Positions 43,154-60,823 of a stretch of 60,823 nucleotides of DNA are shown piece after piece (position 1 is the stretch's first letter; the number at the start of each line of letters is the position of its first letter). This DNA comes from Alphaproteobacteria bacterium MarineAlpha9_Bin6. GTDB taxonomy: Bacteria; Pseudomonadota; Alphaproteobacteria; UBA7887. The DNA is taken from assembly GCA_002937585.1 (NCBI GenBank), contig PTKE01000008.1, forward strand, positions 1-60,823, written 5' to 3'. The notes under the pieces were generated by a model, which was given only the letters and a program-made list of their open reading frames with translations, was not told the DNA's origin and made no database searches. A program made the position numbers and the translations under genes.

Positions 43154-43246
43154 GGGAGTTCGGTGGTGGGCGAATCGCTCGCCAATCCGGTCAGGTCCGG
43201 AAGGAAGCAGCCGTAACGAGATATGGTTCGGGTTGCCGCCGGCTCC
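43154..43246 (+). ncRNA. ffs: signal recognition particle RNA, small bacterial type
   Basis: The universal SRP domain IV core is present: GGTCAGGTCCGGAAGGAAGC, then AGCC, near 43189-43212. Flanking arms pair as a long hairpin (CGGTGG near 43161 with CCGCCG near 43236; GGAG near 43155 with CTCC near 43243), with T-rich DNA after. It lies just before dnaX, its usual alphaproteobacterial place. Exact ends are uncertain by a few bases. Confidence 0.93.
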
Positions 43247-43334
43247 TTATTTTAGCCTCAAGCGGGGGTTCGTTTTCACTTCGGTCAACGGCTTGATTTC
43301 ACCAGATAATTCCGTGGTGACAGGGAGGGGCTCT

Positions 43335-60268: not shown

Positions 60269-60575
60269 GCCGCCTTAGCTCAGTTGGCAGAGCATCGCAT
60301 TCGTATAGATTGATAGTCTGTCTATGCGTCCCTCTTGGGAAATCAGGAGGTGAAAAGGTCGCTAAAACGGGGAACCCTAAACAGGTAATGCTGTTGGCAA
60401 TCCCGTGCTAGCCTCGTTGGAGGCGAGTGTAGAGACTTTACACGACCCACCTAAGGCCTCCGAGGCTAGGGTGAAGAGAAAGTCCAGACCACAAACATCC
60501 CATTTGGGATGGCAACGAAAGTTGTAGTTGGCAAGAATGCGGGGGTCGTGTGTTCGAGTCACACAGGCGGCACCA
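60269..60575 (+). tRNA. tRNA-Thr (CGU) interrupted by a group I intron
   Basis: 5' exon 60269-60304 and 3' exon 60536-60575. Joined, they give a perfect 76-nt tRNA: acceptor GCCGCCT with AGGCGGC; D arm GCTC/GAGC; anticodon stem TCGCA with TGCGG around loop TTCGTAA (anticodon CGT); T stem GTGTG/CACAC with TTCGAGT; discriminator A and encoded CCA. Without splicing the anticodon loop cannot form. The break is between U36 and A37, directly after the anticodon. Confidence 0.95.
60305..60535 (+). ncRNA. group I self-splicing intron (IC3-like) in tRNA-Thr
   Basis: 231 nt, no ORF. Visible pairings: P1 60302-60309 with 60321-60328, which places U36.G at the 5' splice site; P2 60331-60336 with 60345-60350; P3 60357-60361 with 60443-60447; P4 60367-60371 with 60402-60406; P5 60380-60384 with 60391-60395; P6 60411-60415 with 60420-60424; P7 60434-60438 (GACUU) with 60480-60484 (AAGUC); P8 around 60449-60470; P9 60496-60501 with 60506-60511. 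The last base is G (60535). Core stretches GTGTAGAGACT and CCCACCTAAGGC match what I remember of the Azoarcus tRNA-Ile intron, so subgroup IC3. The small size suggests an active ribozyme without its own homing gene. Confidence 0.94.
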
Positions 60576-60638
60576 ATTTTATATGCAAGCAAAAATGTTA
60601 GTAATAAAGCTACTTTAGAAAATTTCTCATCTCCGTAC

Positions 60639-60681
60639 TGAGTTACAATATCTCTAAAATGAGTTACAAATTGATTTACAA
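60639..60681 (+). repeat. three direct repeats downstream of tRNA-Thr
   Basis: TGAGTTACAA at 60639-60648 and again at 60660-60669 (21 bp apart, two helix turns), and TGATTTACAA at 60672-60681. They sit in AT-rich DNA 64 bp after the tRNA 3' end. They could be regulator or recombinase arm sites. Confidence 0.5.
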
Positions 60682-60823
60682 TAACGGTGTTAGGCATGGA
60701 TACGACATGACATCATCCCCCTCATCCGTGTTCATCATCAATCTAACATGAGCAGATGAAGGCGGCGGCGATGACATCCTGAAAGTTAGTTGTCTTGCCA
60801 AGAAATGTTCTGAGTCTCCCTTA

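Follow-up and report, generated by a model that had tools for sequence, protein, structure and literature searches.

A candidate IC3-type group I intron in an alphaproteobacterial tRNA-Thr(CGU) gene, with a guide sequence matched to its host

Which bacterial tRNAs are known to carry group I introns?

The bacterial tRNA genes known to host group I introns are those for Leu(UAA), fMet, Ile(CAU) and Arg(CCU), and it has long been asked how group I introns without an open reading frame (ORF) come to enter new tRNA genes. Part of this list of hosts agrees with two published accounts (PMC8450103 and PMC4033280). Here we describe an intron in a gene for tRNA-Thr(CGU), found in a 60,823-nucleotide stretch of DNA from a marine alphaproteobacterium, which we call the window; the intron is an ordinary IC3-type element in kind, and it is the host tRNA that appears to be new. 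The preliminary description of this DNA had suggested as much, and indeed full-text searches of 5.39 million open papers gave no bacterial tRNA-Thr group I intron. One paper that describes further cyanobacterial tRNAs as hosts of group I introns (PMC5733544) we do not count as prior art, because its introns, at 22-49 nt, are too short for a group I core.

What does the split gene look like?

Positions 60269-60575 of the window (plus strand, as are all intron features below) make up a complete tRNA-Thr(CGU) gene, interrupted between U36 and A37 by a 231-nt intron at 60305-60535, directly after anticodon position 36. The 5' exon (60269-60304) ends on the anticodon CGU, with position 36 its last base, and the 3' exon (60536-60575) includes an encoded CCA; joined, they read GCCGCCTTAGCTCAGTTGGCAGAGCATCGCATTCGT followed by AATGCGGGGGTCGTGTGTTCGAGTCACACAGGCGGCACCA, and all four tRNA helices are fully paired, so that the perfect tRNA claimed at the outset is borne out. 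ARAGORN with introns allowed agrees on both the tRNA and the insertion point, calling tRNA-Thr(cgt) i(37,231), whereas ARAGORN in its default mode (introns off) and Rfam both miss the split gene. This is of practical consequence: standard tRNA finders and the RF00028 cut-off pass over such genes, and the genome would be read as having no tRNA-Thr(CGU).

The gene is the single match to tRNA-Thr(CGU) in its genome, with no second copy detected, and it is therefore useful only if spliced. The tRNA-Thr(GGU) of the same genome is intronless, and the draft, which has an incomplete set of tRNAs, yielded no tRNA-Thr(UGU). A minus-strand ORF at 60377-60697, which overlaps the intron and the 3' exon, was taken as a chance occurrence; the intron itself has no ORF. 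Elsewhere in the window, 43157-43248 (plus strand) matches the bacterial small SRP RNA (RF00169, 54.3 bits).

Is it really a group I intron?

The helices P1 to P9, P7 among them, can be drawn as the preliminary description had it, and they now rest on alignments. P1 joins exon CGU and intron AUAGA (60302-60309) to UCUAUGCG (60321-60328), which contains the internal guide sequence GCG at 60326-60328, located by the guide survey described below and by the Thr(CGU) alignment. It is eight base pairs long, as claimed, with its U.G exactly at the exon end, and this pair, U60304 with G60326, is invariant in 14/14 Thr(CGU) introns; likewise the final base of the 5' exon is U (60304), and that of the intron, the omega G (60535), is invariant in alignment A4. 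P2 is a hairpin at 60331-60350, with two-sided changes in 7/7 pairs. P3 is formed by GGUCG (60357-60361) and CGACC (60443-60447), and all 5/5 of its pairs are swapped as a unit between the two clades of Thr introns. The segment 60367-60406 holds P4 (60367-60372 with 60401-60406) around a short P5 (60376-60377 with 60396-60397) and no P5abc, and is followed within 60407-60428 by P6 (60407-60409 with 60426-60428) and P6a (60411-60415 with 60420-60424). The guanosine-binding helix P7 pairs GACUU (60434-60438) with AAGUC (60480-60484), and P8 with its extension, placed by alignment, occupies 60448-60473. Finally, P9.0 (60489-60491 with 60529-60531) encloses P9 (60496-60500 with 60507-60511) and P9.1 (60513-60516 with 60521-60524), the whole spanning 60489-60531.

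Across the 14 Thr(CGU) pre-tRNAs, the full structure of 77 pairs (tRNA arms plus P1-P9.1, and including the P3/P7 pseudoknot) is paired in 98.3% of 1055 cells, with two-sided changes in 36/77 pairs against a mean of 21.6 in shuffles, while slid versions pair in 34-42% of cells. The five pairs of P3, together with P4, P6 and P7, are paired in 100% of cells. Much the same holds for the core, P3-P8 with P7, in 17 introns from three host types: 98.0% paired, 16 of the 30 pairs altered on both sides where shuffles give 11.7, and 27-46% of cells paired in slid versions. The innermost pair of P7 co-varies across hosts as U-A, A-U or G-C. It should be borne in mind that relatedness among the introns is left in the slid controls, which fall far below the observed pairing, and is not removed by the shuffles. 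Anatomy, conservation, co-variation and the matching of guide to host are all demonstrated at the level of sequence.

Rfam's general group I model, RF00028, is a less helpful witness. Although an RF00028 match above threshold at 60305-60535 had been set as a test, the intron scores 24.1 bits (E=3.3e-4, end-to-end, in a 361-base search) against a curated cut-off of 50, and at the gathering score no match was returned in the whole window, nor was one reported in a 2.8-kb search. The model does match 7/8 sibling loci, with scores of 35.8 and 46.4 for Arg(CCU), 33.9 for Leu(UAA), 34.5 for Thr(GGU), 25.0 for Lys, and 31.2 and 51.4 for introns of CAU tRNAs, the last of these (L190) being the only sibling above 50. 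The cut-off is uninformative here, because siblings from Arg(CCU) and Leu(UAA), both classical hosts, fall below it as well, and we therefore trained a covariance model, R2, on 20 tRNA-Leu, -Arg and -Lys introns, with no tRNA-Thr intron among them. With R2 the window intron reaches 94.8 bits (E=7e-21), the model's only match both in the 60.8-kb window and in the 2.38-Mb assembly; coming from a model so trained, this single strong match is more than chance would give. The layout is that of subgroup IC3 in alignments A2, A4 and A5 (a short P5 without P5abc, no helix insertions in P3-P8, an anticodon-loop host), and we call the intron IC3-type on the grounds of this layout and of its similarity to Arg and Leu introns. 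Core, R2 and layout all speak for the original proposal of an IC3 intron in tRNA-Thr(CGU).

Could the gene nevertheless be a dying pseudogene, with an intron that no longer splices? The low RF00028 score and a weak P10 might be read that way, but the helices are all intact and kept by compensatory changes across species, the tRNA is perfect and the copy is the only one found. Moreover, a true decayed copy looks different: in L122 (G017:C1:2943187-2943333), the second copy of a tRNA-Leu(UAA) intron in another genome (G017), P7 is broken and the 3' half of the tRNA is degraded, while an intact copy (L112) lies elsewhere in that genome. We consider a pseudogene very improbable. It is more far-fetched still to suppose a protein-spliced bulge-helix-bulge intron, or a chimera of the assembly; the insertion does lie near 37/38, the canonical position of protein-spliced tRNA introns according to general knowledge and PMC4033280, but the host is a bacterium, the group I core is complete, and the same insertion recurs in five more assemblies of the family and on eight other alphaproteobacterial contigs.

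How might it splice?

The comparisons make us very confident that this is a small, ORF-less IC3-type group I intron of tRNA-Thr(CGU), predicted to be excised to give the mature tRNA, and one of a family that would have changed hosts through its guide bases. It is probably self-splicing, and we infer catalysis and splicing in the cell along the following lines. The pre-tRNA would fold the intron core, whereupon a guanosine held in P7 would attack after U36, presented as a U.G pair in P1 by the guide GCG. The freed 3'-OH of U36 would then attack after omega G60535, held by P9.0 and the re-formed anticodon arm, to yield mature tRNA-Thr(CGU). P10 can form only 1 bp in the clade of the window intron, where the remaining Thr(CGU) introns have 2-3 bp and most Arg(CCU) introns 2-4 bp, so the second step would have to rely on other contacts.

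How far do such introns reach?

The preliminary description had proposed looking for the same intron in other alphaproteobacterial tRNA-Thr genes, and it is there, in five relatives and eight others. The relatives (G001-G005) belong to the same genus or family as the window and have a gene 81-92% identical to it, while two further members of the family (G006 and G007) have an uninterrupted tRNA-Thr(CGU); the second set, of eight introns, comes from other alphaproteobacteria. The locus is syntenic in near relatives, with a SEL1-like protein in G002-G004 and a deformylase nearby. About 170 bases from the intron-bearing gene of G005 (L006) lies a truncated duplicate of the tRNA-Thr 5' end (G005:C1:108601-108632), a possible trace of integration or duplication.

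In a pattern scan across 84,980 species genomes, which may leave out records very near the window, at least 12 species have a Thr(CGU) intron, every one alphaproteobacterial by its record title, among them Rhodospirillaceae MAGs, MarineAlpha3_Bin6, MarineAlpha9_Bin7 and a Caenispirillum bisanense MAG; the figure is a lower bound because the pattern demands a fixed core motif and spacing. Most of the 76 stretches that the scan returned were discarded, each being a tRNA-Thr without an intron and with a chance match after it, and L069, an archaeal gene whose intron measures 95 nt, was excluded as belonging to another type.

In addition, a second model, R1, whose training includes Thr introns, was run on two overlapping samples and gave matches in 49/385 alphaproteobacterial genomes and 42/399 genomes of the phylum. 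Since ARAGORN's intron mode misreads anticodons in several relatives (four Thr(CGU) genes, for instance, come out as Ile(gat)), hosts were assigned by explicit rules for the spliced exons: U before the intron, G at its end, a 7-base loop with U33, and paired stems. By these rules, which are our own and under which Lys and Leu split positions could be off by one, 100 introns were scored, mostly in Leu(UAA) and Arg(CCU) and a few without a host; further hosts are Thr(CGU) (14), Lys(UUU) (7), Thr(GGU) (5), CAU tRNAs (4), Lys(CUU) (3), Leu(CAA) (3) and Arg(UCU) (1). Thr(CGU) is thus not the sole addition to the Leu(UAA), Met, Ile and Arg hosts listed in the preliminary description, Thr(GGU), Lys(UUU), Lys(CUU), Leu(CAA) and Arg(UCU) being others.

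Several of these deserve mention in their own right. Thr(GGU) introns, after U36 and with guide GCC, sit in alphaproteobacterial families other than the window's (L148, L149, L153, L157 and L160, with L155 at a contig end). Introns of Lys(UUU) and Lys(CUU) (L117-L119, L129, L131, L140, L146, L158, L159 and L162) mostly have the guide GGAG in common, whichever the isoacceptor, and L123, L150, L154 and L172 are introns with this core whose hosts are tRNA-Leu(CAA), where the insertion precedes the anticodon, and tRNA-Arg(UCU).

How does an intron come to fit its host?

What makes the family so attractive is that it forms a clean natural series, in which the core and the type of site are alike and the guide varies with the host. 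In the 86 introns whose P2 loop could be located, we scored a guide as complementary when the bases just before P2 could form a U.G and two Watson-Crick pairs with the 5' exon. The guide complements its own 5' exon in 80/86 introns and the exons of other hosts in 19% of 5372 pairings; the remaining six belong to Lys(UUU) and Arg(UCU), whose exons could pair with the observed guides through an extra G.U. The guides themselves are GCG in Thr(CGU), GCC in Thr(GGU), GGG in Arg(CCU), GAG in Leu(UAA) and mostly GGAG in Lys; some automatic picks of the guide are wrong for introns of Arg and Thr(GGU). Because guides track the host 5' exon in this way, the earlier proposal of spread by re-pairing of the guide is well supported, while the jump from the Ile or Arg position that it implied is unproven, since the window clade moves in the tree with the treatment of helix P3.

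Host-matched guides suggest how such introns may move between tRNAs. The family would have reached different tRNAs by changing two or three P1 guide bases to pair with a new 5' exon, at new sites always with a U preceding the intron, and the route to a new host, we infer, would be reverse-splicing or recombination. The guides of Arg(CCU) and Thr(CGU), GGG and GCG, are one base apart, which makes host switching between them directly testable by mutation. Arg introns have an AUU before the guide that pairs with the 3' exon as P10, as do most introns of the second Thr(CGU) group; the window clade is without it, and its P1 has five additional pairs that compensating changes preserve in L006 and L111.

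Where did the Thr(CGU) introns come from?

The window clade itself is firmly supported (100/100). With all core columns included, it joins introns of Lys(UUU/CUU), Leu(CAA) and Arg(UCU) at 97/93, rising to 100/99 with the P9 region, and one might therefore imagine two lineages entering tRNA-Thr(CGU), the window clade from a Lys-like intron and the second clade from an Arg(CCU)/Leu-like one, a reading to which the extended 8-bp P1 and weak P10 of the window clade, against the short P1 and mostly 3-bp P10 of the other, lend some colour. However, the Lys join vanishes once the co-varying P3 columns are removed, whereupon the two Thr clades and a single Arg(CCU) intron (L125) form one group at 98/86, their next neighbours being an Arg(CCU) intron (L120) and a Leu(UAA) intron (L121) from the window's own family, both weakly placed. 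We reject the Lys affinity as unreliable because it depends on those columns. In addition, a single Thr clade is never rejected by the AU test (p 0.35, 0.45 and 0.49), which does not prove one either, and CGUC after the guide and a U-A pair in P7 are common to both clades. Two entries seem to us rather unlikely.

We are inclined instead towards a single Thr(CGU) lineage with its relatives among Arg/Leu introns, because co-changing paired columns are counted twice by the tree model. A fuller scenario is one that we put forward tentatively, as somewhat short of an even prospect. A Thr(CGU) intron would have arisen from an Arg(CCU) one, or the reverse, through one guide base (AUUGGG to AUUGCG) at the shared U36/AA site; the window lineage would then have lengthened P1, nearly lost P10 and exchanged P3, within a largely undescribed alphaproteobacterial radiation spread by guide switching and not by homing endonucleases.

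How does it compare with its described relatives?

The Agrobacterium-type IC3 introns of tRNA-Arg(CCU), of which we found alphaproteobacterial examples in L114, L115 and L125, share the site after U36, the core, the U.G of P1, the omega G and the want of an ORF, but differ in host and in guide (GGG, not GCG), and have neither the 8-bp P1 nor the near absence of P10 seen in the window clade. The Azoarcus-type tRNA-Ile(CAU) intron is also IC3, small, ORF-less and placed after U36 (L190, with its 51.4 bits, is a CAU example), but its host tRNA, its guide and much of its peripheral helices are different. Introns of Lys(UUU/CUU), Thr(GGU), Leu(CAA) and Arg(UCU) are alike in matching the same core model, R1, and in having a guide fitted to the host; they differ in that host, Lys and Leu(CAA) also in insertion position, and most Lys guides are GGAG. 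Finally, the tRNA-Leu(UAA) introns of cyanobacteria, plastids and proteobacteria have the same IC3 core, and by identity one of them (L126) comes nearer to the window clade than any other single non-Thr intron (0.71 over about 168 columns), although they are inserted after U34, two positions earlier, and are guided by GAG.
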